Source: Desulfobacteraceae bacterium (GTDB lineage: Bacteria; Desulfobacterota; Desulfobacteria; Desulfobacterales; Desulfosalsimonadaceae). Taken from it: 64,000 bases of DNA. The notes below the pieces were generated by a model that was not told the DNA's origin, ran no database searches, and saw nothing but the letters and a program-made list of their open reading frames with translations. Within the stretch, counting starts at the first letter, position 1, and every line of letters starts with the position of its first letter. Positions 1,316-53,945 of the stretch are shown here, one piece after another. The stretch is from NCBI GenBank assembly GCA_011390465.1, contig JAABSH010000001.1, positions 62,001 through 126,000 on the forward strand, read 5' to 3'. Both the position numbers and the translations under genes were made by a program.

Positions 1316-1330
1316 GCAAGCTTTGTTTTT

Positions 1331-24500: not shown

Positions 24501-27500
24501 CGTAACTGGCAGTAACAATGGCCGTCTCTTCGTTCAGGGAAGATATCAGGGTTACTTCCGCAACCCCGTTGTTTTCTGTATCATCTGTACTGCTGTTAAG
24601 TGATCCAGCGGTGGTCGTAAATTGAATACTCTCGCCATTGATAATGACGCCGTCTGAATCTTTCAGTTTTACACTTATTGCGGCATTATCCGCGCCATTG
24701 GTAAAAAGAGATTGCTTATTTGATGATAAATCCGTCAGGCGAACACCGGTAAAGACCACCTCTGTCGTATCTGTTAAGCTACTGCTTTCGGCCGTGATCA
24801 CACTTGTTATGGACACTTCGCTGGCAATGGATGTCAAAGTGGTTTTCGCTTCGCCATTGGCCGTAGTCAGGGTGATCTCATCAGATCCGTTTTCAAATGT
24901 TCCGGACGTGGCCGTCAACAAAACATCCACATCGTCATTCACCAGATTACCGTTTTCATCTACTGCTTGGACAGTGACCAAGGTTGAAATTTCACCGTTG
25001 GCATAAATTTCATTATCCGCCGCTCTCACGCTGATCAGGGTCAACGGTCCAGGATTCTGCAAAATGCTTGTTTGCGCACTCACATCTTCAGTGCTTGCCT
25101 GGATGGTTACAACTTCAGCAACAGTACCCGCAGTGAATTCATAAACTGCGTGGCCGTCGGCATCTGTTATTATCTCAGCCAATTCCGGATTGGCTGGTTC
25201 ATTTGTATTCCCCGTATTGGATTCAAAGGGCACCACATTGTCCCCTTGAAGGGTAATTGTCCAAGGACCATCAGCTGTTACGCTCATTCGATAGGTACCG
25301 GGATCCACAGTTTCGAGTATCTGATTATCTAAAACAAGACCGACTTCGGTAAACAAATATACTTCACCACCACCAGCCGTATTGAACAAATCGACATCGA
25401 AAAGCCCTTCCCCGGTATGAGTGAATGTGAACTGGGTAATACCGGTTGCACTAATCTCGAACGTATCGGTAACTTTATTACCGGTGTCACTGAATGTATT
25501 GGCTATGCTTGCTGCGTTATCGTCTTCTTCCTCAAAAACCCTTGAAAATGTAATGGTTTCACCTTCTATTGGATCACCCGCTTTTGTGGTCAATGTCGCG
25601 GTAACAACGGATGTGTCCTCTCCATTGGCAGTTATTGCTGCCGGGTCGGCAGAGACCGACAGCCTTGTAAGCCCTGCTGGTTCAAAAACCACCTCGGTTT
25701 TTTGCGTCACCCCATCCGCCGGATCATCCGGGTTGGTGGCCGCTGTAATCGTCGCGGTGCCGGCCACATTACCCGCCATCAAGGATAGGGTAATGGTACC
25801 CGCTTCATTGGGCGTAAATGTGGTATAGGTTTGGGGATCATTGTCTCCGTCATTGGGAAATGCGCCAAGATCCGTTGTAAAAACCACAACAGTGCCGGAA
25901 GGCACGGGTTCATTTTTACTGTCCCGGAGATTTGCGGTAATGGTGGCGGAAGATTTGCCATCCGCCGGAAGGGTATTGGGATTGGCATTCAGCAACATAA
26001 CCGCGGGCACATTGATCGCGCTGTTATCCGTGAGCACCACATAAGCGGTCTGGGTTGCCCCATCCGAGGTACAGGTCACCGTGGCGAGTCCGGCCGCGTC
26101 TCCGGCCCAGAGCCGAACACTGGCGGTCCCGTTGTCATTATCCGTCATGGTGGTGTAGGTCATGGGATCCGCATCACCGTCTGACGGAAACGTTCCCAGA
26201 GAGGTGCTAAATATCAGCTCCTTGCCGAATGCCACGGGTTGCCCGGCGCTGGTGTATGCCCGGGCGGTGATCTCAACGGAACTGACGCCATCTGCGGGAA
26301 CATCTGATGAATCCGCTTCCAGAACAATCCAGCGGGTATCGGTGCCGCTGGCAGTTCCGGAAAAAACCACCTGTTTCTGGACCCCGAATGAATTATATTC
26401 AGCAGTGAGGGTCACCAGTGACGGTTCGCTGCCTGAAATCAGGCGAACCTCGGCCCGTCCGGTGTTATCGGTAAGGACTTGTGCCATACGGTTGCCGCTA
26501 ATGTTAAAATATCCCTGATCAGTGGTAAACACCACGGGCTGACCGTCAATGTCATTTCCATCCTGATCTTCCAGACGGGCGGTAACCGTCATGTAAGACG
26601 CACCGTTATCCGCGGGAATGCTGTTTTTATCGGTGGTCAGTTCAAAAACACCCACTGGAACGGGTTTATAGATTATCAGTTTTTTACTGCCGCTGATATA
26701 CCCGTCGGATTCGGCCAGAATTATGGTTTCAGATTCCGCGGAAGTCTGAACAAAAAAGTCGGTTGATGCGGTTCCGTCCGGGCCGGTAACGACTGTGTAT
26801 TCGGTTATGTTACCCGGACCGGATTTTTTGGAAAAACGGATTTCCACGCCTTCCAGGGCGGGATTTACTTTCGCGGTAACCGTGCTTTCATGGGATACGT
26901 TGTCCGCCGGCAGAACTTCCGGGGATGCTGTAACAGTAATGGTGCCTTCGACCGGCAAAGCGGTTATGGTGGTAGTCCGGGTCAGATCGCCGGATGTGGC
27001 GGCAATTTTGGTCTCCCCGGGTAACGTGGAAACCAGATAATCAATTTCTGCCACGCCATTCACGGTTGCTGCGGTTTCCGCGGACAGGGCCCCGGGGCCG
27101 GAATCGATCACAAAAGAAACCGTGCTGCCATCAATGATTGGATTTCCTTTTTCATCCACCACCAAAACAGAGATGCGGCTTTTGCTCACACCGTCCGCAA
27201 AAAGCGCTGACGGAGAAACCGTGAAGGTAATATCTCCACGGATGCCGGCAATATCCTGGATTATGAAAATTGCCTCTGCCATGCCGATTTTGCCGTCATT
27301 ATTGACATCCGCCTGAAGCTGAATGGTTACATCAGGGGCCAAATCAATGCCGGCCATTATTTTCAACGCCAAGATTAAATCACTAAAGTCAACAATTCCA
27401 TCTCCATTAATATCTCCGGCATTTGAATCTCCGGTGATAACGGCATTTTCATAGATATAGGCCATGCCGGCATCCACAGCGATTTCATCACTGCCGGCCG

Positions 27501-28671: not shown

Positions 28672-28873
28672 AATTTCCTCCATACTTAACACATGCCTTT
28701 TATTTCCGCCGGATTGGCGTTTGTTTCAAAAGCGCCGCTTTTAGGAACAAGAAACAGAACCTGTCAGACGGTGTAATTTCTATTTGTCTTGTTTTTTCGG
28801 CCTTGATCATTTTCGGCCACCACCATCGTAAAATCTTATTGGGAAATACGATATTTTGCGGTTGAACCGGAAT

Positions 28874-28959: not shown

Positions 28960-31900
28960 TTAATATCCCAGTCCACAGGTACCCAGTTCCACCATCGTCT
29001 CCGTGCAGAGCAGGATGCTGTCATAAAAACTGGTTATTCCGCCGGCTTCCGCTGATATGCGAATTTTTATGTTGTTGGCATAGGACATGGGATAATAAAC
29101 GGTAGTTGTGGCAATGCCGTTTGTCGTTGCTGTCGGGCTGTCAATGGTTACACCCTGGGGCGGATCCAGCACGCCATTGCCGTTTTTATCCTCTCCTGCA
29201 TCCAAAATGCCGTTCTGATTGGCATCTTCAGAGGGTGCCATGGGTCCGAAAAGGGAATACATGGTGCCATCCTGATTAATATCATCACTGAACCAGGTTA
29301 TCCCCAGATCAGAAACGGACTCGGTGCCGTCGCAGGGCTGCCCGTTGAATTTGCGGCAGTTAATGGTAAAATCATTGTCGCGATCTTCATCAAAGGCAAT
29401 GCTGGTCACACTGAAATTGATCTGATTGTTGTCAGCGACGGGATTTCCATAAATATCGGTGGCAATACCGCTTACCGCCACTTCAATATGACCCTGTGCA
29501 TCACCTGTTTGAACAGTTTCAAGATTGATGCTCACCCCGATATTTGCCACCGGGCCGGCAATGGTAAGCGCGGTCACCGCACTGGCACCGGTGAAATCCG
29601 GTTCAGTTGAAGCTTCTATGACCACATCCCCGATTTTTGCGGACGGAATATTACCTGCAATTAACTGAACTTCCGCTTTTCCCGTTAACGCATCCGTGGT
29701 TGCCACGCTTTTGGTTAAATATTCCCCACCACCAGGACCTTCCACCAGCCTGAAATAGATTTTCTGGTTTCCCGCCGGCTGATCATTCATATCATACATA
29801 ATCGCCTTGATTGCCGCTGAACCGGTATCAGTGGCAATTATGCCCGGATCCGTCTTTAATACAATTTTTTTTGCGGCGCCCCCGGCAACACTAATTTCCG
29901 AAGCAGCGATTAATTCCTGACCGTTGATCACCGCAATGGCGCTCAGGGTAACTTTGCCGCTTTGATTGCCTGCCTGCAATATGGTCTTTGCTTCTCCGGG
30001 CAAATTCAACCCGACACCGGTGGTGTCCGTGGTTCCGCCAATCAGGGATCCCAAGGTGGCACTGAAAAACACCGTCACATTGTTTTTGGGAACCCCGTTT
30101 TCAGAAATCGATGCCGTAATTTCAGCGGTTTCATTGACCCGGATTGAAGCCGGATCCACCGACAAGATCATCTGGTATTTGTTAAAAACAACATTCACCA
30201 CTTCCGGCGCCACCGTACCCAAAACATCCGTATCCGCCAGTACATAAATCGTTCCGGACTGATTGGGCAGCAGATGAACGGTCACCGCTCCTGAAGCATC
30301 CGTTATATATGGCGTTGTTTCAATAAAATTGCCGATCACCGGGTCAGAGACAGGTGGCGGCGGATCGGCCGGATCATAAGAGTAAAGATCAAAAGAAATC
30401 TCTTCTCCTTCAATGGGCCGATTTTCCGCATCCCGCAACACCGCCAGAATTTCCACGGAGTCCGGATCAACTTCCTGGTAAAAAGACACCCGGGGGTCCG
30501 CGGTCAGACTCAACGTGACCCCTTCAAACAAAACAGTGGTCGTGGCAGCATCCCCGGCCTGACTTCTGGCCGTTACAACGGCCTCGCCATTATAGCGTCC
30601 GCTGGTCAAAGTGGCTTTGGCCTGCCCGTTGGCATCCGTGGTAAATGGCGTGGTAATCGTTCCGCCGGTGGTGGAAAAAGAAATCACCGCCCCTTCAATG
30701 GCCTGGTTATCCGCGGTTTTTGCGGTTGCGGTAATAATTGTCTGATCCACACCATTGGCTTTCAGCACGGATTTTTCCGCCAGGACCTGTATGTAGCCCA
30801 CGGTCCCGCCGGTAAAGGAAATCGTAATGGATTGGGTCAGCCCGGTACCGGGTACGGTTGCGCTGATGGTGGCCTGACCCGGCATACTGTCCGCGACAAT
30901 GGATGTCACTGCAGTACCGGTTTCATCCGTTGTGGTAAGCGTTATCTGGCTGGTGATATTCCCGGAACCGGGTACGCCGCCGGGAAATGTCCCCATGGTT
31001 GTGGAAAATCGTATCTGGGTTCCCACCGGCATGGGAAAGCCTGCTGTGTCAAAAACGCCTGCGGTTATGGCGGTGGAACTGCTGCCATCGGCCGGCAGGC
31101 TTTCATCTGCAGCGCTTAAGGTAATGTATCCCGTGGTTTCGGTTGGTTCCGCCACCTCGATGCAGGTCTTGTCTTTGAACTGACTGTTGCTGGCGACGGT
31201 CACCCGGACCCGGTCCCCGGAACAATCACAGGCAGTGCACAAATTATCCGTTATTACACCGGCTGTATAGGTGACAATTGCCCGGCCATTGGTGTCTGTT
31301 GTGCCGGAAACATTATCCAGTGTCGCATTGGTATTGTTTTCATAGATATCAAAATACAGAATTTCGTCCGGAACCGGGGCGTCTTCGGTGTCTCTCAGTT
31401 CGGCAATAAGGGTGGCCTGCCCGCCGGGAGCGACCTTATCCGGCATGGCGGTAAGGGATACACCGCCGGCAGCAAGGGAAGTAAAGCGCACGTCAACTTC
31501 ACCCCAGAAACCATTGGCATTGGCGGTTACTGTGGCAGTGCCCCAGGTGTTTCCGGATTTTAGGGTAAAATCCGCAATACCGTTGACATCTGTTTCTTTC
31601 TGAATATTCTTCGGCGTACCCAGGGTGGATGCAAAATTCACTTTTATCCCCTGGGCCGGGGCACCGTTATAATCCAGGACAGTGGCACGGATCAACACTG
31701 TAGCCGCGCCGTCCGCCTTGATTTCTTCAGCACCGGCCGTAACTGTAATCTCACCGACAATGGTGGCATCTTCATCAACGACTACTGTTACTGCCTTGCT
31801 GACACCATTGTTCACCCGGGCTGTAATTTCCAGATTTCCCTGTCCATATGCCCTGGCAGCGGTCCAGTCAAAGCGAAATACGCCATCTTCCGCCTGGTCC

Positions 31901-33417
31901 GGCGTCAGTTCCGCGGAATCCACAATTTGGGATTGCCCCTTCAACCGGACCTGGAGCATAAGGCGCTGATCCTCTATCCGGTTGTCGTATTTGTCCTGAA
32001 CAATGGCAGCGGTTTCAAAAGCCCCCCCTGGCGGGACTGTATCCGGGAAGGCATAGAGTATAATATGATGGGCCGGCCCGGGGACAAATTCCAGCGCCGC
32101 CTCACCAATAAACCCGTCACACGCAGCTCTTACGGTTACCGGGCCTGCAATGGTTGAAGACTGCAACATGATCTCGGCCCGGCCTTCGCTGTCCGTGATG
32201 ATTTCATCATCAGAAAGGGTGCCGGCGGTTTTAGTGAAATGCACGATTTTTCCAATGGCGGGGGTGCCGTCAATATCCGTGACCAACGCCCGGATTTTTA
32301 CCTGACTTTTGCCATCCGCAACCAGCGTGGGAGAGCCGCTGGAAACGGTGATGCTGTTTATCACAACCGCATCCGGATCCACTGCTATCGTGGTTTCCGT
32401 ATTCATCCCCAGATCACCGGCCCAGGCCGCCTGAATCATATCCGTTCCCGGTTCTTCTCCCGCTGCATAGGTTATCTGGGCAATGCCGTTGACATCCGTA
32501 AGCGCACTTTGTGTGTCTATGGTGCCTTCGCTGGCATTAACGGTCTGAGAAAAGACAACCGACGCATTGGCAACCGGATTTCCATTGACATCAGTTAAAG
32601 CGGCATAAAGATTCGTACTGCCGCCCGGTTTGACGGTTGACGGTGCGGCACGAAGGGATATTTCATGGGGAACATCCGCGGTTAAGGTTACAGTTGTCTC
32701 TGCATTCAATCCATCAACCGACGCCAGTATCGTCGCCGTACCAATTGTTTTACCGCTGATCAGCATCACCGTGGCTTCCCCATCCACATCCGTAACAACG
32801 GTTTCCGTACGATTAATTATCCCCGGTAAAGGATTGGATTCCGGAAACCGGCCAAGACTGGTTTTGAATTTTACGGAAGCCCCTTCTTCCGGATTGCCCA
32901 GGGCATCAGTGACAGTTGCAACAATTGCCACCCGGCTTTCACCGTCCGCGGTGATGGATTCACTGCCCGTGCGCAGGGTGATGGTTCCCACTTTTGTGGG
33001 ATCAAAAAACTTAACTTCCGTTTTTTGCGTAATATTATTGGATTTTGCCGTTACCTCAGCCGTGCCGGGGACACCGTCTGCAATTAACGTCACGGTAACC
33101 GTTCCGGATTCATCTGCTGTTTCGACTTTATATTCTTTTGCCCCATTGCGAAATGTGCCCCGGGTGGTCTGAAATACCACGGATGTCATCTCATACACCG
33201 GTTCATTACCCGAATCCGCCAAAGCAGCGGTAATCGTGGTGGAGGTGAGACCATCAGCGGGCAATGAAACGTCAGCCGCCGTCAGATTAATCGAAGCCGT
33301 CACCCCGGGCCCGCTGTCGCCGCCGGGACTGCCGGACTCCCCGCATCCTATGAGCATCAATGCAAGAAAACTTATTAAAATCAGCCGAAAAGTCATCTTT
33401 GCATGCACGTCTTTCAT
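28960..33417 (-). CDS. Large Ig-like (Big_1) repeat lipoprotein
   Basis: This encodes about 1,485 residues. The N-terminus is a lipoprotein signal (residues about 8-25, FRLILISFLALMLIGC) with the lipobox Cys in LIGC followed by GESGSPGG, so the protein is lipid-anchored, probably in the outer membrane. The rest is a run of roughly a dozen Big_1 / invasin-type Ig domains (LPADGLTSTTITAAL, VKANGVDQTIITA, GNPVANASVVFS). Near the C-terminus an Asp/Asn-rich stretch (DANQNGILDAGEDKNGNG) looks like a calcium loop. I start at 33417, where AAAGGAA precedes the ATG; an ATG at 33453 is less likely. The gene begins 70 bp after pilQ on the same strand, so it may be part of the pil operon. A surface-rod role is inferred. 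Confidence 0.85.
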   Translation of the reverse strand: MKDVHAKMTFRLILISFLALMLIGCGESGSPGGDSGPGVTASINLTAADVSLPADGLTSTTITAALADSGNEPVYEMTSVVFQTTRGTFRNGAKEYKVETADESGTVTVTLIADGVPGTAEVTAKSNNITQKTEVKFFDPTKVGTITLRTGSESITADGESRVAIVATVTDALGNPEEGASVKFKTSLGRFPESNPLPGIINRTETVVTDVDGEATVMLISGKTIGTATILASVDGLNAETTVTLTADVPHEISLRAAPSTVKPGGSTNLYAALTDVNGNPVANASVVFSQTVNASEGTIDTQSALTDVNGIAQITYAAGEEPGTDMIQAAWAGDLGMNTETTIAVDPDAVVINSITVSSGSPTLVADGKSQVKIRALVTDIDGTPAIGKIVHFTKTAGTLSDDEIITDSEGRAEIMLQSSTIAGPVTVRAACDGFIGEAALEFVPGPAHHIILYAFPDTVPPGGAFETAAIVQDKYDNRIEDQRLMLQVRLKGQSQIVDSAELTPDQAEDGVFRFDWTAARAYGQGNLEITARVNNGVSKAVTVVVDEDATIVGEITVTAGAEEIKADGAATVLIRATVLDYNGAPAQGIKVNFASTLGTPKNIQKETDVNGIADFTLKSGNTWGTATVTANANGFWGEVDVRFTSLAAGGVSLTAMPDKVAPGGQATLIAELRDTEDAPVPDEILYFDIYENNTNATLDNVSGTTDTNGRAIVTYTAGVITDNLCTACDCSGDRVRVTVASNSQFKDKTCIEVAEPTETTGYITLSAADESLPADGSSSTAITAGVFDTAGFPMPVGTQIRFSTTMGTFPGGVPGSGNITSQITLTTTDETGTAVTSIVADSMPGQATISATVPGTGLTQSITISFTGGTVGYIQVLAEKSVLKANGVDQTIITATAKTADNQAIEGAVISFSTTGGTITTPFTTDANGQAKATLTSGRYNGEAVVTARSQAGDAATTTVLFEGVTLSLTADPRVSFYQEVDPDSVEILAVLRDAENRPIEGEEISFDLYSYDPADPPPPVSDPVIGNFIETTPYITDASGAVTVHLLPNQSGTIYVLADTDVLGTVAPEVVNVVFNKYQMILSVDPASIRVNETAEITASISENGVPKNNVTVFFSATLGSLIGGTTDTTGVGLNLPGEAKTILQAGNQSGKVTLSAIAVINGQELIAASEISVAGGAAKKIVLKTDPGIIATDTGSAAIKAIMYDMNDQPAGNQKIYFRLVEGPGGGEYLTKSVATTDALTGKAEVQLIAGNIPSAKIGDVVIEASTEPDFTGASAVTALTIAGPVANIGVSINLETVQTGDAQGHIEVAVSGIATDIYGNPVADNNQINFSVTSIAFDEDRDNDFTINCRKFNGQPCDGTESVSDLGITWFSDDINQDGTMYSLFGPMAPSEDANQNGILDAGEDKNGNGVLDPPQGVTIDSPTATTNGIATTTVYYPMSYANNIKIRISAEAGGITSFYDSILLCTETMVELGTCGLGY

Positions 33418-33487
33418 GAAACCATTCCTTTCAAATCTGTATATGTGGGGCATTTTTTACCTTCGTATGAATCGCAATGAATGATGG

Positions 33488-35881
33488 TTAATTTTCCGCC
33501 TGCACCAGGTGTTTCTGTTCCAGCTGAACAATGCGGGGGGTCATAAAAATCAGAAGTTCCTGCTTAACGTTGCTCTGACTCTTGGCCTTGAACAGCCAGC
33601 CGATCATGGGAATTTCCTTTAAAATGGGAAACCCGCTTTCCGTGTATTTGGTATCATTTTTCACCACCCCGCCGATCACTATGGTCTCGCCGTCATCCAC
33701 CAGCAGTTCGGTTTCCGCTTCATTGGTGGAAATAATGGGATCACCGGTTTCGATAAATCCGATAATTTCATTTTTTGTGGTTTTGATAAGCAATGACACG
33801 CGACGGTCCGGGGTCACATGGGGGGTCACTTCAAGACTTAAATCCACATCTTCAAACTGAATATCAACTTCATCATCTTCGACGGTCTGGAAAGGGAATC
33901 GCTGGCCCTGTTTGATCGTGGCTTTTTTGTTGTCCAGGGTTAAAATTTTGGGCGTTGAAATAATTTTACCCTTGTTTTCCGATTCCATGGCTTTCAGGGC
34001 CGCATCAAGGACAATGGGCGTGCCCCAGGCATCCAGCCGGGTAAAATTAAGGCCAATGGTTCCCTGACCAGCGGCTGATTGCGCCGTCAGCATGGGGGTG
34101 TTCATGGCAACATTATAAGAATACTGACCGTCAAGGCCGCTTTTGTAAATATCATCGCCGCTGGCATTCCATGCAACGCCAACATCCCGGTTAAAATCAT
34201 TATTGATTTCCACAATCCTGGCTTCAATGAGCACCTGGGGCGTAACTTTGTCAATTTTATTGATGATTTCCCTGGCTTTTTCAATCTTTGGCCGGGTATC
34301 CGTGACAATCAGCTGATTGTTCCTGCCGTCTACGGTTATGGTGCCCCGATCCTTTGTCAATATATCTTTCAGATGCGGCAGAATTTCACTTCCGGCATTG
34401 GCATAGCTTATCGGGATATATTCCGTAACCAGGGGATCCAGGGTTTTCTGCTCTTCCATCCGCTGCCGGATGGCCTGAATTTTTTTCTGTTTGGCTGCTT
34501 CTTCAGCACTCAACGTTGCTGTGGTGGCGATGCGGATGATATCTCCCTGCTCGACCTTGCCCAGTTGATTCATATCCAGAATCAAATCCAGCACCTGATC
34601 CCAGGGCACGGGTTTTTCAAGGGAAATCGTGACTTCACCGGTGACATTTTTATCTACTGCGTAATTTTTCCCGCTTACCTGCTGCAGAATCTTAAACACA
34701 TTTTTAATATCGGTTTTGTAAAAATCCAGGGCGATTTTCTGGCCGGTATATTCTTTGTTTTCATTGAGCAAATCCGCGTATGGATTTTCTTCTTCCCCGG
34801 CCGTTGCCAGGGAAACTTCCGCCCCAGGCGCATTTGCCGTTGCCGTTTCCATGAATTCCTGCCATGGGGCCAGACCAGCGGATGCAAAAGGCCGGGGGCC
34901 GATGCCGGAAGCGTCAAAATGCAGGGTCAGCAGATTATTTTCCGCTACCGGCCGGTAGGGTACCCTTTCCCGAAGTTCAACCACAAGATCGGTACCATTA
35001 TTCATATCAGCCGCCGGCACCGGGCTGATGCGATCCACCGCACTTTCAAACCGGGTAGTGATCAGGGGGCGGTTGCGGCGGTATTCCGGCAACCGGGCAT
35101 TAAACACCCTGACGCGCAGGGTGCGGGGGTTAAGAGTTTGAATATCATAATCAATGACGCCTTCAGCAACGCCCACAATAATACTGGATTTTCCATTCTC
35201 CAGGGTTGAAAAATCAATCCGGTCAATTATGGTGGGGGTTGTATCAGCAGCGGATGCGCGGGACGGTTGTTCCGTCAACTCCTGTTTTGCGAGAGAAAAT
35301 GAATCTTCCGTCGCTGTTGCCGGTGCGGTTCCGGACATGGCCGATCCGCTGGTTTCCATCTCCTGCATCACGGATACGGGAATGACATCCGCCGCTGGTG
35401 CTTCAGCAACTGCTGCCGCAGTCTGATCGGGAAACACAATCTCCAGATCCTGTCCATTTCTTAACACTTCATAGGGCACATCATGGTTCAGGCCGATTTC
35501 AAGGCGGGTGTTTTTCTGGTCCGTCGATGGGGAGGCGGTGATGGATGAAATAACGCGGGTTTCTCCCGTCACTGAAGGGCTTGGATTGCCCTGAAATGTG
35601 GTTTCCGGAAACAGCAGCAGAATACCCAAAGGATTATTCTGCTTCACGGACGTATACTGGAGCTGTTTGTTGGCAGAAACAATCACCCGCTCCCCGCCGC
35701 CGGAAACCAGCGTTCTCAGGCCGGTGATCTTTTTTTGAGACGCTGCATCCGCCGGGGTGGCATCCTTTTTTTCTGAGATGGAAGCACAACCGGCAGAAAT
35801 CAATAACAGGATCGACAGAAACAGACCGCTTGCCGTCCGCCCGATTTTTTTTTGCGATACCCTTAACCTGCAATCATACAT
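33488..35881 (-). CDS. pilQ: Type IV pilus secretin PilQ
   Basis: PilQ forms the outer-membrane ring through which the type IV pilus passes. The 797-residue protein has an N-terminal lipoprotein-type signal (FLSILLLISAGC), two AMIN-like domains in the first 350 residues, an STN/N0 domain at about 390-440 (ISLEKPVPWDQVLDLIL), an N1 domain, and the secretin barrel from about 560 to the end (VLIEARIVEIN, then KTTKNEIIGFIETGDPI and GETIVIGGVVKND). A Pro/Ala/Ser-rich linker lies in the first third. A GGAGAG site precedes the ATG. It is the last pil gene of pilMNOPQ, directly upstream of the Ig lipoprotein. Confidence 0.95.
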   Translation of the reverse strand: MYDCRLRVSQKKIGRTASGLFLSILLLISAGCASISEKKDATPADAASQKKITGLRTLVSGGGERVIVSANKQLQYTSVKQNNPLGILLLFPETTFQGNPSPSVTGETRVISSITASPSTDQKNTRLEIGLNHDVPYEVLRNGQDLEIVFPDQTAAAVAEAPAADVIPVSVMQEMETSGSAMSGTAPATATEDSFSLAKQELTEQPSRASAADTTPTIIDRIDFSTLENGKSSIIVGVAEGVIDYDIQTLNPRTLRVRVFNARLPEYRRNRPLITTRFESAVDRISPVPAADMNNGTDLVVELRERVPYRPVAENNLLTLHFDASGIGPRPFASAGLAPWQEFMETATANAPGAEVSLATAGEEENPYADLLNENKEYTGQKIALDFYKTDIKNVFKILQQVSGKNYAVDKNVTGEVTISLEKPVPWDQVLDLILDMNQLGKVEQGDIIRIATTATLSAEEAAKQKKIQAIRQRMEEQKTLDPLVTEYIPISYANAGSEILPHLKDILTKDRGTITVDGRNNQLIVTDTRPKIEKAREIINKIDKVTPQVLIEARIVEINNDFNRDVGVAWNASGDDIYKSGLDGQYSYNVAMNTPMLTAQSAAGQGTIGLNFTRLDAWGTPIVLDAALKAMESENKGKIISTPKILTLDNKKATIKQGQRFPFQTVEDDEVDIQFEDVDLSLEVTPHVTPDRRVSLLIKTTKNEIIGFIETGDPIISTNEAETELLVDDGETIVIGGVVKNDTKYTESGFPILKEIPMIGWLFKAKSQSNVKQELLIFMTPRIVQLEQKHLVQAEN

Positions 35882-35896
35882 GTTTAACTCTCCAGA

Positions 35897-36679
35897 TTAT
35901 TGCTGAAGTTTCAGTTCTCTTTCACGAACAGAGACTTTTCCAAAAACGTCCAGGTATTTTTCCTCAACCACAATGCGGTCTTTCAAAATTTTTGAAAGCT
36001 GACCGCCCTTATTGCCGATATAAGTTCCTTCGCTTACCACATATCCTTTTCCGGATGATTCCTGCACCAGGGCCCGGGTTTTTTCCGGCATCCGTAAAAT
36101 AGATGTCAGCCGGAGCTGACTCATGTCAATTTTTTCAAGCGGCGTCCGGGGCACTCGTCGTTCAATTCTGGCCTGTTCTTCTGAAACCACGTCAGGCTCG
36201 GGCTGACGCAAAAAGGGTTCAAACGGATCAATCCGGCCCTTGCGGGTGTAGAACTCTTCTTTTTTGCCGATAATATTGGATATTTCTTCCCGGATCATTT
36301 CTTCGGTCATTTCTTCTGCCGTTTCTTCGATCGTTTCTTCGGTTGCTGCCTCGGAAAAATCAGTGGCGGGTGGCGATGCGGTTTCAACCGCTGGTTCTTT
36401 TGTTCTGGATGCAGGATCAATCGGTGTTACGTCCGAAACAGCCACATCCGGCTCAGGGGGAGCCGCTTCAGGCGGGGCGATTTTTTCAGCATCAGAAAGT
36501 GTCTCAGAAAGGACCGCTTCAGCAGAAGGCGCATCGGTTTTTTCCGGCCTTACGATCTGTATGCGATCGCTTTTGTAAATCAAGCCATTTGAGGCTTCGG
36601 CGCGCTGAAAATGGCCATAAAAGCAGAGTCCCAACAACAGAACAGATACGATGATACAACCATAAATTTTTGTAACCAT
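35897..36679 (-). CDS. pilP: Type IV pilus inner-membrane lipoprotein-like PilP
   Basis: PilP links the inner-membrane PilNO complex to the PilQ secretin. The 260-residue protein has an N-terminal hydrophobic segment (IIVSVLLLGLCFYGHF), a long linker rich in Pro, Ala and Glu (about residues 45-135), and the conserved PilP beta domain at about 150-260 (RKGRIDPFEPF, PLEKIDMSQLRLTSIL, then GKGYVVSEGTYIG). The domain signature is clear. The acidic linker is longer than in many PilP proteins. No lipobox Cys in the classical position is obvious. It lies 15 bp before pilQ. Confidence 0.9.
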   Translation of the reverse strand: MVTKIYGCIIVSVLLLGLCFYGHFQRAEASNGLIYKSDRIQIVRPEKTDAPSAEAVLSETLSDAEKIAPPEAAPPEPDVAVSDVTPIDPASRTKEPAVETASPPATDFSEAATEETIEETAEEMTEEMIREEISNIIGKKEEFYTRKGRIDPFEPFLRQPEPDVVSEEQARIERRVPRTPLEKIDMSQLRLTSILRMPEKTRALVQESSGKGYVVSEGTYIGNKGGQLSKILKDRIVVEEKYLDVFGKVSVRERELKLQQ

Positions 36680-36704
36680 AGTTTATCTTCTTTTATTTCT
36701 ATCT

Positions 36705-37331
36705 TTACTTTTTTTTGCCTTTGCCCGCATCCGCTGTTTCTGGTTTGGGCTCCACAAATTTATAGGTTTCAGCAGTGCATGCGATTTTCAAATCCGATCC
36801 TTTGGCAATTTGCATGTCAAATTTTTTTACATTTACAATTCTGGACATTCCGGCCAACGCATCAAAAAACGTGCCCAGATCATGATAGGTGCCGGACAGA
36901 TTCATGGTCACCGGAAGTTCCGCATAAAACTCCTTCATGACTTCCTTTTCCGGTTTAAACAATAAAAAAGAAAGGCCTGAATCCTTGCCCGCCTGGGAAA
37001 TACCGGTCAGCAAAGCAGGGACTTCATCCTTCAACGGCAATGCCCGGGCCACCACATTAAACTTGGCCTGGGCATTTTCCAGCTTTTTCTGAAAATCCGC
37101 ATACTGGGCCGCGCTGCGTTTGGTCGAGTTTAATTTTTCTTCCTGTGTGGCGATGTCTTTATTCAATTTGTTAATGTCTTCATATTTGGGCATATATAAA
37201 AAATACACAAACCCGCCCACAATCAGCGCCACCACTGCGCAGCAAATGATAATTCGCTGAATTTTTGTCAATTCGCCAATTTGTTTGATCAGCGGTTCAA
37301 GAGAATTTAATGAGATATCCTTTTTATTCAT
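36705..37331 (-). CDS. pilO: Type IV pilus alignment protein PilO
   Basis: PilO pairs with PilN in the inner-membrane alignment complex of the type IV pilus. The 208-residue protein has a short cytoplasmic N-terminus, one membrane helix at about residues 28-47 (IIICCAVVALIVGGFVYFLY), a coiled-coil segment (about 52-100) and a ferredoxin-like periplasmic domain (PVTMNLSGTYHDLGTFFDAL is the family signature). It ends in a Lys-rich tail. A GGAG site precedes the ATG. It lies 46 bp after pilN. Confidence 0.92.
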   Translation of the reverse strand: MNKKDISLNSLEPLIKQIGELTKIQRIIICCAVVALIVGGFVYFLYMPKYEDINKLNKDIATQEEKLNSTKRSAAQYADFQKKLENAQAKFNVVARALPLKDEVPALLTGISQAGKDSGLSFLLFKPEKEVMKEFYAELPVTMNLSGTYHDLGTFFDALAGMSRIVNVKKFDMQIAKGSDLKIACTAETYKFVEPKPETADAGKGKKK

Positions 37332-37377
37332 TTCTCCATTTGCCTTTTTTTTATCTTATTCGGCTGTTATTCCTGAT

Positions 37378-37941
37378 TTAGGCGGGCGTTCCCTTCTGAT
37401 CGGCGGCTTTTCGGCATTTGATATTAAACTGCTTCATGTCCACACTGTATTTATTCACCTGTCTGGAACTCTCCAGTACCACGTCCGCGAACAATCCGGA
37501 TCGCTCCAGGCGCAGCATGAACACGGCAATGGTTTCATTGTCCAGGGCATCCCCCACCAGGGTCAAATTGGTGTTGTCGGAAATCAGGCGGATCAGCTGC
37601 ATTCTTCCGGGAATCACCATCTCCGTCATTTTTGCCAGCAGTTTTGGCGGGGTTTCCCGGTAGGTTTTTAACTGGTTTACCACTTCAATCTGCTTGTTGA
37701 GGGTTTCCAGCTTTTTCTTGATCTCTTCCACCTGCCTGGCTTTTTCTTCATAGATTGCGACTTCTTTTTTCACCTTTTCCAGATCATCGGCCAGGGCTTC
37801 TTTTTTCCCGTTCAAATGGCTGTTATAGACAATCAACACCACAACCAGCAGGATAAAAGACAGAAAAAAAACCGATACCTGTCTGCGGATATTTTCCTTG
37901 GATCTGGCAGCCCGAAAGGGCAGTAAATTAATACGTATCAT
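37378..37941 (-). CDS. pilN: Type IV pilus biogenesis protein PilN
   Basis: PilN is the inner-membrane partner of PilM and PilO. It starts with the conserved cytoplasmic motif MIRINLLPFR, which docks into the actin-like PilM. One membrane helix (about residues 24-43, VFFLSFILLVVVLIVYN) and a coiled coil (about 50-95) follow. The C-terminal ferredoxin-like domain spans about 100-187. The ATG overlaps the pilM stop by 4 bp, showing translational coupling. At 187 residues the length is typical. Confidence 0.94.
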   Translation of the reverse strand: MIRINLLPFRAARSKENIRRQVSVFFLSFILLVVVLIVYNSHLNGKKEALADDLEKVKKEVAIYEEKARQVEEIKKKLETLNKQIEVVNQLKTYRETPPKLLAKMTEMVIPGRMQLIRLISDNTNLTLVGDALDNETIAVFMLRLERSGLFADVVLESSRQVNKYSVDMKQFNIKCRKAADQKGTPA

Positions 37942-38993
37942 TTGTCATCCACTCTTCTGGTTGCAAGCCCCAGAGATATGGCGGCCTGGGGTGCGATCTG
38001 TTTCAGATAAACATCATCAAACTGGTCACTGGAAACGGTTAACGCCTCAAAAGGATTTATCATATTGACTTCAGCCGAGGACTGCATGGCCAGCAGCTCC
38101 CTGAAATCCTTGATATGGGACGCTCCGCCGCTCAGAAAAATCCGGGTGATCCGGTCATCCGGGTTGGTGGAGTAAAAAAAATCCAGGGCCCGCCGGATTT
38201 CATCACACCAGTCGGAAATGCTGGAGGATACGATTTCCCGGAGTTCTTCAGATGAAAGCTTTTCCGGTTTTTCACTCAGCATGATTTTTTCCGCCTCTGT
38301 CATGGTGCAGCCGGCAACAGAAGAAATCCGCTGATAAATCTGATTGCAGCCCAGGGAGACATCCCGCAAAAATACGGAAATATTGTTCTTTAAAATATTT
38401 ACCGATGTTTTGCTGGCGCCCACATCAATGAGCGCGATATTTTCCTCCAGAACCCCGTAATTGAATTCAAAAATATTCTGCAGGGCAAAGGCATCAATAT
38501 CAATGATGCACAAATTCAAATCCGCCGCGTCAATGAGGTTGATGTATTCGTTGACCATTTCCTTTTTTGCGGCCACCAGCAGCACATTCATCTGGTTGGG
38601 ATTGTTTTCAGTCTCGCCCAGAATCTGGAAATCAAGGTTCACGTCATTAATATCAAAAGGAATATACTGTTCCGCCTCAAAATTGATGGACTCGTAGAGC
38701 TGCTCTTCAGGCATGTTCTGAACGGTGATATTCTTGACAATAACAGAATATCCCCCAATGGAAATCGCCACATTTTTCTGTTTGATATTGTAATTCTGAA
38801 AAACCTGACGAATGGCTTCCGCCACGGCCTGGGGATCCTTGATTACCCCTTCTTCAATGGCGCCGGGGTCAATATCAATGGTTCCAAATTTTTTAAGGGT
38901 CCATCCCTTTTTGGTCTCTTTTACTTCAGCGACTTTAATTGAACGGGATCCGATATCCAGCCCGACAACCTCGTTTTTGGGTCCAAATAGCAT
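37938..38993 (-). CDS. pilM: Type IV pilus assembly ATPase-like protein PilM
   Basis: PilM is the cytoplasmic actin-like component that binds the PilN tail and couples the pilus motor to the envelope complex. The 351-residue protein shows the FtsA/actin fold: phosphate-1 loop VVGLDIGSRSIKVAEV at residues 9-24, connecting segment IALIDVGASKTSVNIL near 190 and the adenosine motif IFLSGGASHIKDF near 288. It opens the pilMNOPQ operon. The 5' spacer is 631 bp. Confidence 0.95.
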   Translation of the reverse strand: MLFGPKNEVVGLDIGSRSIKVAEVKETKKGWTLKKFGTIDIDPGAIEEGVIKDPQAVAEAIRQVFQNYNIKQKNVAISIGGYSVIVKNITVQNMPEEQLYESINFEAEQYIPFDINDVNLDFQILGETENNPNQMNVLLVAAKKEMVNEYINLIDAADLNLCIIDIDAFALQNIFEFNYGVLEENIALIDVGASKTSVNILKNNISVFLRDVSLGCNQIYQRISSVAGCTMTEAEKIMLSEKPEKLSSEELREIVSSSISDWCDEIRRALDFFYSTNPDDRITRIFLSGGASHIKDFRELLAMQSSAEVNMINPFEALTVSSDQFDDVYLKQIAPQAAISLGLATRRVDDK

Positions 38994-41501: not shown

Positions 41502-42770
41502 ATGCCTGCATCAGATGATTTCAAAAAAAGACTGCTGCCGAATCTTGCGGATATTGCCGCGCATTTCGGTACGCCATTTCACATTTATGATGAAACCGGC
41601 ATTTTAGAAACCGGCAACGCCCTGAAAGCCGCTTTTGCCCCCATCCATGGATTTATGGAATACTTTGCGGTGAAAGCCCTGCCCAATCCCGCCATACTGA
41701 AAATCATGCGCAGGATGGGATTCGGATTTGACTGCAGTTCGGTTCCTGAACTGGTGCTGAGCCGCCAGGCCGGCGGTGCCGGAGAAGCCCTTATTTTTAC
41801 CTCCAACAATACCACGGACCGGGACTTTCAGGTCGCTTTTGAAGATGGCGGCTGCATTATCAATCTGGATGATATTTCCCTGATCCCCAGACTGCCCGCC
41901 GTTCCCGAGCTGATCTGCTTCCGCTACAATCCCGGCCCCCGGCGAACCGGCAATGAAATCATTGGAAACCCGGCCGAGGCAAAATACGGCGTAAGCCATG
42001 ACCAGATTGTAGAAGCTTACAACCTCATGATGCAAAAAGGCAGCACCCGGTTCGGCCTGCATACCATGCTGGCATCCAACGAGCGCAACTACAGCTATAT
42101 TGTTGAAACCGCCCGCATGCTGCTGGATCTGGTCCGATGGATCACGGAAGAACTGGGGATCAAATTTGAATTTATCAATATCGGCGGCGGGCTGGGAATT
42201 CCCTACCGGCCGGAAGACGCACCCATTGATCTCGGGGCCATGAGCCGGGAAATCATTGATCTGTTTACCGGGTTCCAGGCGGAAAACGGGTATATGCCCA
42301 AACTGTTCATGGAAAGCGGCCGGTACATGACAGGACCCCACGGGGTGCTGGTGACCCGGGCCATCAACCGCAAGGATATTTACCGCAATTATATCGGTGT
42401 TGATGCCTGCATGTCCGCCCTGATGCGGCCGGGAATCTACGGCGCCTACCACCATATTGAGGTGCTGGGAAAAAATGCGGAATCCGGCCCCCTGGAAACA
42501 GTGGATGTGGTGGGGTCGCTGTGTGAAAATATTGACAAATTCGCAGTGCAGCGCACCCTTCCCAAAATTGATCCGGATGATCTTTTGATTATTTCAGACA
42601 CCGGCGCTCACGGCCACGCCATGGGATTTAATTACAACGCCAAACTGCGTCCCAAAGAGCTGCTGCTCCGGCAGGACGGATCCGTTGCGCTCATCCGGCG
42701 GGAAGAGACCATGGCAGATTATTTTGCCACCCTGGAGTTTGAAAAAAATATTTTCAGAAAATCCGGATAA
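41502..42770 (+). CDS. lysA: Diaminopimelate decarboxylase-like PLP enzyme
   Basis: This is a fold-III (alanine-racemase-type) PLP decarboxylase of the LysA/ornithine decarboxylase superfamily. The cofactor Lys is in EYFAVKALPNP. The glycine loop that holds the PLP phosphate is NIGGGLGIPY, and the conserved Cys-Glu at the active site is in GSLCENID. The 422-residue length fits LysA, which makes lysine from meso-diaminopimelate. Some motifs differ from standard LysA: MESGRYM where EPGR is usual and SDTGAHGHAM where DAGAYG is usual. A related substrate therefore cannot be excluded. GAGGAG lies 12 bases before the ATG. The gene is convergent with the PEPCK-like gene, 12 bp apart. Confidence 0.8.
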   Translation: MPASDDFKKRLLPNLADIAAHFGTPFHIYDETGILETGNALKAAFAPIHGFMEYFAVKALPNPAILKIMRRMGFGFDCSSVPELVLSRQAGGAGEALIFTSNNTTDRDFQVAFEDGGCIINLDDISLIPRLPAVPELICFRYNPGPRRTGNEIIGNPAEAKYGVSHDQIVEAYNLMMQKGSTRFGLHTMLASNERNYSYIVETARMLLDLVRWITEELGIKFEFINIGGGLGIPYRPEDAPIDLGAMSREIIDLFTGFQAENGYMPKLFMESGRYMTGPHGVLVTRAINRKDIYRNYIGVDACMSALMRPGIYGAYHHIEVLGKNAESGPLETVDVVGSLCENIDKFAVQRTLPKIDPDDLLIISDTGAHGHAMGFNYNAKLRPKELLLRQDGSVALIRREETMADYFATLEFEKNIFRKSG

Positions 42771-42782
42771 AAAAATGCACTA

Positions 42783-44423
42783 TCAGCACAGGGACAGACC
42801 AAAATCCTCCAGATCCAGATTATCATCAATGGAAATAATCTGAGACAGCATGGACCGCATCTCTTCGGGCACAATATCTTCATACTGCTCAAAATTTTTC
42901 ATGAATTCCGCCACCAGGCGGATGGCCCGCAATTCATATTCACCCGCGTCTTCCGCGCATTTTCTGGGATTTAAAATTTGCGCCGGCACCACATCTCCGG
43001 GCGTGCGGGCGGGAATTTCAAACTGAAATACCGGATCGGTTTCAAATTCCATTTTTGCCAACTCTCCGGAAATGGCTGCCTTGACCAGGGCCCGGGTGTG
43101 CGCCAGCTGAATGCGGTCGCTCTTAAAACTGGGCTCCCCGCTCCATCCGGTATTCACCAGCCAGCAGTGGATATTGTATTTAATAATATTTTCCATCAGC
43201 CGCTTGGCATATGCATAGGCGGGCAGGGCAATCATGGTGTCCCCAAAGGCCACACTGAACATGACCTGGGGTTCAAATTCCCCGGATTCCATCTGGCTGA
43301 ACTTGGAGGTGTACGCGGAAAGAAAGGCGTACACCGCCTGTTCCGGTGTCAGACGGGCAATGGGGGGCAGCACCCCGTAAGCGTCGCAGGTCAGCAGAAA
43401 CAGATTTTTCGGATGGTCAAACATGCCTTCCCGGTAAGCATGGGGAATATGCGTGATTGGGTAAATACAGCGGGTATTTTCCGTAAGGCTGTTGTCATGC
43501 AAATCCACCCGCCGGGTATCCATGTCAATGGACACATTTTCCAGAATAGAGCCGAATTTCCGGGTGCATTCATAGATAAACGGCTGCTGGTCTTTTGAAA
43601 TATGCATTATTTTGGCATATCCCCCCCATTCCAGATTAAACAGCCCTTTATCACTCCAGGCATGGGCGTGGTCACCGATGAGGCGCCGGTCCGGATCCAC
43701 CGCCAGGGTGGATTTGCCGCTGTCCTCCCGGCCCAGGAAAATCGCCACATCCCCGTCCTTGCCCACATTGGCCGAGCACCGCATGCAAAATATCGATTCC
43801 GGCATCAGGTAGCTGGAAAGGGTGAACACCGCCTGCCGGATTTCACCGGCATAGCTGGAGCCGCCGATGAGCACCAGCTTCTGGGTCAGATTAATAATGA
43901 TAAAAGCCGTGGAGCGGGTGCCGTCCAGTTCCGGAATGGCATGAAACCCCGGAATATGAATAATGGTAAATTCAGGGTCAAAGGTTTCCAGTTTTTTGAG
44001 ATCCCGTACCTGAAAAAACATATTCCGCACAAAAAGGCTGTGCCAGGCGGTTTCCGTTACAACGCGGATGGGCATCTGATATTCCAGCTCGCTGCCCACC
44101 AGGCAGTCCTGGACATAAACTTCCTTGTTGTGCATATAGGCCAGCATGCGATGAAACAGGGTATTAAAATGATTTTCCGAGAGTTCATTTTTTTCCTCAC
44201 TCCAGAAAATCTTTCCTTCGCTGTGGGGATCTTTGACAAAAAATTTATCTTCAGGCGGCAGCTCCGCATAGTGACCGGTGCGAACCACCAGCGGCCCCAA
44301 ATGGGCAAGCTGCCCTTCACGGTTGTTTACGATCTCCTCATACAGCACTGAAGTGGGAAGATTCCGGTAAATTCGCCTTAAATGCTTACGCCCGAAATAT
44401 TCAAGATCCAGACTTTCAACCAT
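42783..44423 (-). CDS. PEP carboxykinase (ATP)-like protein with altered active site
   Basis: The 546-residue protein aligns along its length with ATP-dependent PEP carboxykinase, which converts oxaloacetate and ATP to PEP. Shared stretches are MRCSANVGKDGDVAIF, the P-loop GREDSGKSTL, LIGDHAHAWSDKGLFN and TENTRCIYPITHIPHA. Comparison from memory with E. coli PckA shows key changes: Lys213 to Gln (YAGEIRQA), His232 to Arg (MRCSAN), Asp269 to His (GDHAH) and Arg65 to His (RTGHYAE), while the Arg in TENTR is kept. The first three are the manganese ligands. It may be a related phosphotransferase or a non-catalytic paralog rather than true PckA. AAGGAG precedes the ATG. Confidence 0.8.
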   Translation of the reverse strand: MVESLDLEYFGRKHLRRIYRNLPTSVLYEEIVNNREGQLAHLGPLVVRTGHYAELPPEDKFFVKDPHSEGKIFWSEEKNELSENHFNTLFHRMLAYMHNKEVYVQDCLVGSELEYQMPIRVVTETAWHSLFVRNMFFQVRDLKKLETFDPEFTIIHIPGFHAIPELDGTRSTAFIIINLTQKLVLIGGSSYAGEIRQAVFTLSSYLMPESIFCMRCSANVGKDGDVAIFLGREDSGKSTLAVDPDRRLIGDHAHAWSDKGLFNLEWGGYAKIMHISKDQQPFIYECTRKFGSILENVSIDMDTRRVDLHDNSLTENTRCIYPITHIPHAYREGMFDHPKNLFLLTCDAYGVLPPIARLTPEQAVYAFLSAYTSKFSQMESGEFEPQVMFSVAFGDTMIALPAYAYAKRLMENIIKYNIHCWLVNTGWSGEPSFKSDRIQLAHTRALVKAAISGELAKMEFETDPVFQFEIPARTPGDVVPAQILNPRKCAEDAGEYELRAIRLVAEFMKNFEQYEDIVPEEMRSMLSQIISIDDNLDLEDFGLSLC

Positions 44424-44523
44424 GATCGCTCCTTTATTTTCAATTGGTTAAATTTTCAGTCATATCGCCGTATACAGATACGGGGGGTGTCCGGCCGCCG
44501 GTCCCAAAAAAGATGAAGTTGCG

Positions 44524-46713
44524 TTAAATACTGCCGGTAGACGCTAACGCATAAACCACCAGTTTCTGCATCATTTTTTCCTTGGCATTTCCCGGTTTAT
44601 CCAGTGCCAGCCGCTCCAGATACGGCAGGGCCGCCGGGGGGATGCTCCGGATCGCCATTGCCTTTCCAAGGCTGGAGACTTTGCTGAAACCTTCGGTCAT
44701 CTGGGCCTTCAGCCATTTAAGGGCTTTTCCGATAACCATTTCTTCTTCCGTGAAATCCGTGCCAAAGGGAAACGGCTCAAAAAGTCCTTTTGCCTTGAAC
44801 GGCGCCATCACTTTTTCCAGCTGATCCGGATAATTGTTTCGAAACTGATCCGGAATACAGTACCCCTCATGTATTTTTCTGGCTTTTTTGGCTTTTTCCA
44901 GCAGGTCTTCCTGAAACCGGGAGTCCGTGATATTCAAAAGCTGCTGAATCACTTCCCGGTCCGTCCTGCCCCTTAAATCCGCAATGCCGTACTCTGTAAT
45001 CACAAAATCCCGCAAATGCCGGGGGATTGTGATATGCCCGTAATTAAAGACAATATTGGAAGCCGCCGACTTTCCGGCCCCCCGGATGCCCTTGCACATG
45101 AGAATGGAACGGCCGTCCGGCAGGGCATGGGCCTGGGACACGAAATTATACTGTCCCCCCACCCCGCTCACCACCTGGCCGTTTTCCAGGCCGTCGGACA
45201 CCACTGCGCCGGACAATGTCACCATCAGGCAGGCATTGACAAACCGGCCCTGCCGCCGCTGAAGGACTTTCAATGTTTCACTGTAATAAGGATTGTTTCC
45301 ATACAGCTGATTAACGTTCAGCACACTGGTCATAAATATTTTTTTGCGCTGTTCCTCGCTCATGTCATTGAGCATCTGGTACAGGCTTTCCGGCCCCAGA
45401 AAAAACCCGCCGTGAATCAATATCTCATTTTTCAGTTTATCCCCGAGACAAAGGGAAACCATCTGATCAAAATTTTTTGAATCGGTTAAATCCGCCGAAA
45501 TTTGAGTATCTCCGGCCACAATCACCTCATTGTCAAAACGGATATTCTCCCTGAAAATGCCGAACTCCGTCAAAAAAGCCACGTCTTCAGCCCTCAGCCG
45601 GGGATGCACGGCCCCTTCCGCCATCAGCAGTTCCAGGGTTTTCGGGGTCACGGTATCGGTAATCTTTTTGTCATTGAGCAGCTTCTGAATATGTTCGTTA
45701 TTATAGGTTTTGCGCTTGACCACCCCGGCATCCAGCAGCTGCAGATATCCGTCCACCAGCATTTCCGTCGAACCGGTAATGCCTTCCGCAAAAGAATCCG
45801 TGCCGCCCACCCGGTCAATGGCGTTGCCGAACTTGCCCACCATGCCGGCATCATTGATAAATTTCTTGTATTCCGCATTGTGGGCATGCCGCATCCGGAG
45901 GCCGTAGCACAGGGCATCTCCCAGGGATCCAATGCCGATCTGAAGGGTGCCGCCGTCTTTGATCAACGTGCTGGCATACATGCCGATCATGTAATCCGGG
46001 GTGGTGATGGACATTTTGGGGGCACCGAACAGGCGGGAGGTGTATTGGGGGGCATCCACCACCATGTCAAAGACATCCGGCGGGACCACGGCATCCCCGT
46101 ACATAAACGGCAGATTCTGGTTGATGGTGGCCACCAGCGCGATTTTCCGGCCCTGGTTTTCCAGCTCCCGCATGGCCGGCACAATATCCAGCGACACCTC
46201 GGGGTTGCAGCTCATGCTGTAAACGGTTTTGCCATCAATCTCTTTTTTGCACACCATCTGCGCCACCACATTAACCCCGCCGTCAATGGAATCCCGCCAG
46301 GCATGGGTATAATTGGAGCTGATGTAATTCATCTGGGCATGGTCTACATTGATATAAGAGCCTGCTTTTGCGTAAAATTCCCTGAGCTCGAAATTTTCCG
46401 GCAGATCGCCCTTGCGGAGATCTTTCATGTAATCAAGTTCCACATAACCGTCAAATTTGCGTTTTACAAACGGGCCCAAAAATCGTTGTTCCAGGTCGCT
46501 GGCACCTTTGGGTTTTTCAAGGGAGAGGGCTGTGATAAAGGTAAGTTGAAGGGCCGGGTCTTTTTTCGCTCTTTGGTACAGGGCATTTGCAAACTCGTTG
46601 GGCTTGCCAAGCCCTAAAGGCATGCCGAACACAATTTTTTTGCCCACTTTACGAATGACGTCATCCACACACTTTTCAACATCCTGATAAAATACCGGCC
46701 TTTTCCCTTCCAT
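44524..46713 (-). CDS. Acetyl-CoA hydrolase/transferase family protein
   Basis: This 729-residue protein belongs to the acetyl-CoA hydrolase / CoA-transferase family (Cat1, AarC and 4-hydroxybutyrate CoA-transferase relatives), which move CoA between acyl groups via a glutamyl-CoA intermediate. Recognisable parts are the N-terminal KIVFGMPLGLGKPNEF, the mid-protein LQIGIGSLGDALCYGLR, and the C-terminal NGQVVSGVGGQYNF and VITEYGIADLRGRTD. It is longer than the typical 430-500-residue members because of extra sequence in the middle and at the end. A GGAGGAT site precedes the ATG. In a sulfate reducer it could handle acetate or other short acids, which is inferred. Confidence 0.85.
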   Translation of the reverse strand: MEGKRPVFYQDVEKCVDDVIRKVGKKIVFGMPLGLGKPNEFANALYQRAKKDPALQLTFITALSLEKPKGASDLEQRFLGPFVKRKFDGYVELDYMKDLRKGDLPENFELREFYAKAGSYINVDHAQMNYISSNYTHAWRDSIDGGVNVVAQMVCKKEIDGKTVYSMSCNPEVSLDIVPAMRELENQGRKIALVATINQNLPFMYGDAVVPPDVFDMVVDAPQYTSRLFGAPKMSITTPDYMIGMYASTLIKDGGTLQIGIGSLGDALCYGLRMRHAHNAEYKKFINDAGMVGKFGNAIDRVGGTDSFAEGITGSTEMLVDGYLQLLDAGVVKRKTYNNEHIQKLLNDKKITDTVTPKTLELLMAEGAVHPRLRAEDVAFLTEFGIFRENIRFDNEVIVAGDTQISADLTDSKNFDQMVSLCLGDKLKNEILIHGGFFLGPESLYQMLNDMSEEQRKKIFMTSVLNVNQLYGNNPYYSETLKVLQRRQGRFVNACLMVTLSGAVVSDGLENGQVVSGVGGQYNFVSQAHALPDGRSILMCKGIRGAGKSAASNIVFNYGHITIPRHLRDFVITEYGIADLRGRTDREVIQQLLNITDSRFQEDLLEKAKKARKIHEGYCIPDQFRNNYPDQLEKVMAPFKAKGLFEPFPFGTDFTEEEMVIGKALKWLKAQMTEGFSKVSSLGKAMAIRSIPPAALPYLERLALDKPGNAKEKMMQKLVVYALASTGSI

Positions 46714-47389
46714 TTAATATCCTCCGGAAATTGCGATCACAAAAAATTAATACCAATCTGCCAACAATGGTTATTATCCTTGCCACAATCGTCAGGGGGC
46801 ATTTTCAGGCGGCATTTTTTCAGCACCCGTTCCCGGGAGGCGGTGCCGGTCAAAAACCTGTGTGCACCCATGATCATTATTTATAAAAAAACAATCCTGA
46901 CGGCTTCGTAAAAAATCGGATTTAGACGGCAACGTAAAAAGTTCCAAATTTGAGGCGCGCAAATGCCCGGCAATGAGGCGTACTTGGCGTACGTTGAAGC
47001 AGCCGGGGATGCAGCGCAACAAAAAATTTGGACTTTTTACGATGCCGTCATTTCTGGTAAAACATCATGTTGTTCGTTGCCCTTACATGAAGCCGGCATG
47101 AAACCTGATGTAAGAATTCGCGGAGGAAGGGCCTGCTGCCGGTCTGAGGTGGCTTCACGTCAAATGATTAAAATACTTTCATAAAAAATCATTATTCAGA
47201 AACAATGTCAATATCAATTCTTGCGGCGATCGGCTACAAACAGGGGCAACGGGTTAAGATTAAAATATTTTCTGCTTATCCGGTTCGCTCAAGATCAGCC
47301 ATCGAAATCGGGATCGGGATCGAAATCGCTATCGAATCCGATACCGATACCGATTTCGATCCCGATAAAAACACGGCAGCTTGAGTTAA
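46714..47389. other. Repeat-rich spacer between the CoA transferase and GlcF-like genes
   Basis: This 676-bp region has no convincing gene. It contains the MITE-like element at 46925-47049 and most of the ATCGGT-rich hairpin element at 47271-47399. The short open frames that cross it follow the repeat sequence and are not supported by a ribosome-binding site or by homology. Confidence 0.7.
46925..47049. repeat. MITE-like element with GACGGC termini
   Basis: A 125-bp element with imperfect terminal inverted repeats of about 25 bp: GACGGCAACGTAAAAAGTTC at the left and, in reverse complement, GACGGCATCGTAAAAAGTCC at the right. The interior holds GGCGTACTTGGCGTACG. A further GACGGCTTCGTAAAA segment lies just to its left (46899-46913). 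A fragment with the same terminus is at 60232. No transposase is encoded, so it would be non-autonomous. Confidence 0.75.
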
Positions 47390-53694: not shown

Positions 53695-53945
53695 CTGGTT
53701 GTGAACCCTCCGTCGAATATGTGCGGATAATAAATTATAACATAACCGGGATCGATCCACGACACAGACTGCATTGTTTATCGCTGCTTCCTTCCGGACC
53801 TGACGAGGTTCACAACCGTCTGTTGCATGGCGACCGGTCAGAATAACTTATTTGTCCGAACGCAACCCTTGGGAGGGAGTTCTGCCCCGCATAAAGCGGA
53901 TTTCGGGAAACAAGGTACCGCTGACACCCCGCATATCACAACCAG
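53695..53945 (-). ncRNA. ffs: Large bacterial SRP RNA (with Alu domain)
   Basis: The RNA is read on the minus strand. The S-domain core GTCAGGTCCGGAAGGAAGCA is exact and lies at about 53785-53804. The 5' part GGGGTGTCAGCGGTACCTTG and the following AATCCGCTTTATG match the Alu-type region of the long SRP RNA known from Bacillus (comparison from memory). The ends pair: CTGGTTGTGA at the 5' side with TCACAACCAG at the 3' side, which sets the limits at about 251 nt. SRP RNA with Ffh delivers membrane proteins to SecYEG. Ends are approximate to a few bases. Confidence 0.88.

Follow-up and report, generated by a model that had tools for sequence, protein, structure and literature searches.

The ATP-dependent phosphoenolpyruvate carboxykinases (ATP-PEPCK; PckA, PF01293 / TIGR00224) are textbook, well-conserved enzymes, and their P-loop relatives include HPr kinase/phosphorylase, whose substrate for phosphorylation is a protein. 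Substrate binding in PEPCK falls to the R-loop and nucleotide binding to the P-loop; the Omega-lid shuts over both and is latched where the R-loop arginine touches the lid apex (PMC12529880). Metal site 1 is made up of a lysine, a histidine and an aspartate, and the nucleotide metal is held on the P-loop threonine (PMC4370629).

We analyzed a 64,000-nt stretch of DNA from a Desulfobacteraceae bacterium (the window) that carries a divergent PEPCK-like gene, here called dPCK (42783..44423, minus strand), encoding a protein of 546 aa. Like the ATP-PEPCKs, this protein has the full fold, with 45% identity to T. thermophilus PckA, and has Walker A, D268, R333, R449 and Y207 (E. coli PckA numbering). 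Unlike them, the dPCKs are without the Mn ligands K213, H232 and D269, without E270, L249/S250, C285 and the Omega-lid motif AGT, and mostly without R65; they have an added C-terminal tail, an operon with a CoA-transferase and a TIGR00224 score below the cut-off. HPr kinase/phosphorylase has a different architecture and dPCK matches PEPCK families only, which leaves that comparison as an analogy. The CoA-transferase shares with the 4-hydroxybutyrate/acetate CoA-transferases (PF13336) the C-terminal domain, a putative catalytic glutamate (TEM-xDG) and a GGQ motif, and differs from those ~440 aa enzymes in its length of ~729 aa and its long extra segments.

The open-access literature yielded no paper on inactive PEPCK paralogues in Desulfobacterales and no account of a conserved PEPCK clade that lacks the catalytic metal site while under strong selection. 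In the genome papers of D. autotrophicum and D. multivorans, the terms searched turned up no mention of either gene.

A PEPCK fold with an altered active site

The original prediction held that the PckA fold motifs are retained in dPCK, and this proved correct. The protein matches PF01293 (PEPCK_ATP) over its full length at 551.8 bits against a cut-off of 26.5, and phmmer aligns it to T. thermophilus PckA at 1.7e-149 and to E. coli PckA at ~3e-99. An AF2 model built with 49 homologues, which replaced an earlier model from a shallow alignment (pLDDT 68), has pLDDT 87 and pTM 0.88, with values <50 at the termini only. VIA-align superposes this model on T. thermophilus PckA (2pc9) with Z 49 and rmsd 1.9 A over 507 residues and on E. 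coli PckA with Z ~46, and Foldseek is concordant on the PEPCK fold. The score of dPCK against the TIGR00224 pckA equivalog model is 512.8 bits, below the cut-off of 590.05, compared with 726 bits for the canonical paralogue from the same genome and 990 bits for the E. coli enzyme. Every dPCK tested falls below this cut-off and the canonical copies lie above it; one dPCK (L108) exceeds the threshold of a broader PEPCK model.

Residues were compared in E. coli PckA numbering, using the E. coli gene sequence, and three alignments agree. All three Mn2+ ligands are replaced as had been predicted: Lys213 by Gln197 (43833..43835, minus strand), His232 by Arg215 (43779..43781, minus strand) and Asp269 by His252, which lies in the triplet Asp251-His252-Ala253 (43665..43673, minus strand), where Asp251 is the retained D268 and Ala253 stands in for E270. 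The substrate-binding Arg65 of the R-loop is also missing, and here the original prediction of a histidine has to be corrected: the aligned residue is Leu55 (44259..44261, minus strand), in VRTGHYAEL vs VDTGIFTGR. The P-loop is rewritten, as predicted, from GLSGTGKTT to GREDSGKST, and remains an intact Walker A motif, GxxxxGK[ST] (G231-REDSGK-S238, 43710..43733, minus strand; E. coli GLSGTGKT). Arg333 is kept as Arg318 (43470..43472, minus strand). Further replacements are K212>R196, L249>R, S250>E, G251>D, C285>G and E297>Q, together with loss of the Omega-lid motif AGT. The original prediction had not remarked on this joint change of R-loop, P-loop and Omega-lid, nor on the C-terminal tail and the partner CoA-transferase described below.

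The ligands could have been present at shifted positions, and alignment with 22 canonical PEPCKs was used to check this. None were found there: there is no gap by the motifs and ~70 other invariant columns align, so the substitutions stand. The PDB listing of E. coli PckA mutants includes K213 (K213S), D269 (D269N), R65 (R65Q), S250, K254 and Y207, and thus the positions altered in dPCK include ones chosen for catalysis studies. Metal site 1, the lid apex and the greater part of the R-loop are thus gone from dPCK, and the nucleotide side is retained.

A separate canonical pckA, for which the original prediction advised a search, is present on another contig of the same genome (G000:C97:30909-32459). 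This second PF01293 gene has every canonical motif, scores 724.8 bits and encodes a protein 46% identical to the window dPCK.

Distribution and conservation of dPCK

Family searches covered 60 relatives, 389 genomes of the order Desulfobacterales and 395 genomes across the phylum, most of them draft assemblies. We found dPCK in 37 of the 389 order genomes, in about ten families. Among the 395 phylum genomes, no full-length match that extends into the tail was found outside Desulfobacterales, and a near-identity scan of genome contigs beyond the phylum returned near relatives only. One genome (G074) carries two dPCKs (L111, L116), the second without an adjoining CoA-transferase.

In a maximum likelihood tree the dPCKs form one clade (100/100) that sits beside the canonical PEPCKs of one Desulfobacterales family, f67 (100/99), and on this placement the clade is taken to derive from a canonical PEPCK. 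The canonical PEPCKs of family f1 are of two types (L045-L054 vs L055-L062), 44-46% or 33-37% identical to dPCK, which suggests, from the sequences, a replacement of the housekeeping enzyme.

Conservation was counted over 36-38 usable dPCK sequences. At four positions that are invariant in the canonical set, the dPCKs have settled on other residues: arginine at 232 (35/36, with Q in one), arginine at 249 (35/36), histidine at 269 (35/36) and glutamine at 213 (in 30). Because R232, R249 and H269 recur at this frequency across an order-wide clade, the replacements are not chance. Arg65 is present in six distant members. The ATP-site residues are kept (K254 36/36, T/S255 36/36, D268 35/36, R333 37/37, R449 37/37), as are Y207 (35/36) and K288 (31/36). 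Between close dPCK pairs dN/dS is about 0.05 (range 0.04-0.13, NG86), like that of canonical pairs, which shows that dPCK is maintained and not decaying.

The C-terminal tail (P519-C546, PEEMRSMLSQIISIDDNLDLEDFGLSLC; 42786..42869, minus strand) is conserved across the whole clade, with the consensus PEEMRxMLSQIISxDDxLDLEDFGFS[MI], and is never found in canonical copies. A search of the genome's proteins for a further copy recovered nothing but dPCK itself. We considered the tail as a bacterial-microcompartment signal and rejected this, since BMC shell proteins are absent in 9/10 dPCK genomes.

A CoA-transferase adjoins dPCK

Directly upstream of dPCK on the same strand lies a gene for a CoA-transferase / acetyl-CoA hydrolase-like protein of 729 aa (44524..46713, minus strand). 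It matches AcetylCoA_hyd_C (PF13336) at 132.5 bits against a cut-off of 23.7 and 4-hydroxybutyrate CoA-transferase 3gk7 at 3.7e-23, and falls below every NCBIfam cut-off. Its putative catalytic Glu317 (GSTEM) aligns with the TEM motif of 3eh7 in a weak segment and is invariant in 43 sequences, and the SGVGGQ motif is retained.

A CoA-transferase of ~729 aa stands directly upstream of dPCK on the same strand at 24/24 loci where the two were found together, with a gap of 4-235 nt. The gap is 100 nt in the window and holds a Shine-Dalgarno-like AAAGGAG (44429..44435, minus strand) ahead of the dPCK start. The canonical PEPCK loci that we looked at have no such CoA-transferase. While the wider CoA-transferase family is common across the order, the dPCK-linked members and two others (from G199 and G257) form a clade of their own within it (100/99). 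G199 has dPCK and the clade CoA-transferase unlinked, and the gene of G257 ends at a contig edge.

Among the 389 genomes, 35 have both genes, two dPCK only, one the CoA-transferase only and 351 neither, as counted by hand with borderline cases placed by the tree and with genomes that are related, so that the counts are not independent. The single-gene genomes (G028 and G309 with dPCK, G257 with the CoA-transferase) are all contig-edge cases. Since relatedness inflates these counts, a stronger argument is that the pair survives outside f1, where the rest of the neighborhood differs (L077, L078, L108-L112). A partnership of dPCK with this CoA-transferase clade is strongly supported. A link to the methylmalonyl-CoA/propionate pathway was also considered; MM-CoA mutase is present in 27/28 genomes with or without dPCK, and is therefore not discriminating.

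Other features of the window

A gene for a LysA-like PLP decarboxylase (41502..42770, plus strand; 289 bits, just below the lysA cut-off of 297.9) is convergent with dPCK in the window and in most f1 genomes, and probably lies outside the dPCK/CoA-transferase module. At a locus without dPCK in two genomes (L154, L160), this convergent LysA-like gene directly follows a sister CoA-transferase, which may mean that dPCK was inserted between them.

The ~680 nt upstream of the CoA-transferase (46714-47389) has no obvious gene and no Rfam match. The pilM-N-O-P-Q secretin genes (33488-38993) are closely followed downstream, on the same strand, by genes for two very large surface proteins of 1497 and 5381 aa (28960-33453 and 12547-28692, both minus strand). 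Both are built from Big_1 / Invasin_D3 Ig-like repeats, to which the larger protein adds FG-GAP repeats. The window also has a bacterial large SRP RNA (53699-53941, minus strand, 135 bits) and two tRNAs (1241-1406, minus strand).

Possible functions of dPCK

The original prediction proposed a new activity or a regulatory role. Its foundation, loss of the metal site in an otherwise conserved protein, stands, and a new role is supported by monophyly, purifying selection, the separate canonical pckA and the conserved replacement residues; the choice of a specific activity lies beyond what sequence can decide. Most likely dPCK is a neofunctionalized, PEPCK-inactive, ATP-binding partner of the CoA-transferase, serving either as a subunit that responds to nucleotide or as a kinase that acts on a new substrate. 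Loss of metal site 1, R-loop and lid apex with the nucleotide side kept makes PEPCK activity unlikely and Mg-ATP binding likely, and the near-constant position right after one CoA-transferase means that dPCK probably works jointly with that enzyme.

Given this partner we tentatively prefer, at somewhat less than even confidence, to see dPCK as an ATP/ADP-responsive subunit of the CoA-transferase that is no longer a PEPCK, by a mechanism that is conjectural. A canonical ATP-PEPCK would have been duplicated in or before the Desulfobacterales radiation to give the dPCK paralogue, which would no longer interconvert oxaloacetate and PEP. Mg-ATP would be bound at the old nucleotide site, with Arg215 and His252 occupying the space of the former Mn ion, and dPCK would act on or with the CoA-transferase as its ATP/ADP-responsive subunit. 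The hinge opening and closing of PEPCK with nucleotide could then gate CoA transfer by energy charge, with the new C-terminal tail perhaps as a docking element. The second dPCK of G074, which has no adjoining CoA-transferase, argues against this, and retention of R333, Y207 and K288 is a better fit to catalysis than to a pure sensor.

Those three residues are also why an active ATP-dependent phosphotransferase that works on a new substrate ranks close behind, as a possible though more doubtful alternative in which Arg215 and His252 assume the electrostatic role of Mn2+. Its substrate might be a small carboxylic acid, a CoA-pathway metabolite that the CoA-transferase makes or uses, or the CoA-transferase protein itself. 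The near-invariant Walker A lysine, D268, Y207, R333, K288 and R449, the new invariant charged active-site residues R232, R249 and H269 and the operonic metabolic enzyme upstream all fit such an activity, but no substrate can be named, and the latch between R-loop and Omega-loop, by which the canonical active site is closed, is altered. That dPCK retains part of the old chemistry, as oxaloacetate decarboxylation or slow PEPCK with Mg2+ only or an altered metal site, is quite unlikely: the fold, many invariant residues and the Arg65 of six distant members are consistent with it, but all three ligands have changed, a canonical pckA is in the same genome and the same E. coli positions were picked for catalysis mutants (K213S, D269N and R65Q in the PDB). 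It is improbable that dPCK and the CoA-transferase are mere neighbors that inherited gene order has kept side by side without a functional link. In f1 genomes synteny does extend over a longer stretch (DnaK, AMP-ligase, PilM-P), but outside f1 only the pair is shared, and G199 has both genes though unlinked. We give almost no weight to an ordinary PEPCK whose odd residues reflect sequencing error, misalignment or pseudogene decay; the window does come from a draft assembly of 119 contigs, but the same changes are found in 36-37 independent assemblies with full-length ORFs, and these orthologues and the low dN/dS refute error or decay as their source.

An unlikely further prospect is a two-gene Desulfobacterales system in which a PEPCK-derived P-loop protein, with Arg and His in place of the metal, couples ATP to the CoA-transferase reaction. 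Such coupling, as a metal-site-free phosphotransfer or an ATP-driven CoA transfer, would be a kind of chemistry that PEPCK family members are not known to carry out.

Since the dPCKs tested score below the TIGR00224 cut-off and one (L108) still passes a broader PEPCK model, misannotation is possible. The dPCKs score on PEPCK models, and there is a risk that metabolic models of marine sulfate reducers include them as gluconeogenic PEPCK. Their tight pairing with a single CoA-transferase clade provides a concrete, testable partner and could bring to light a new link between acyl-CoA metabolism and the ATP level.
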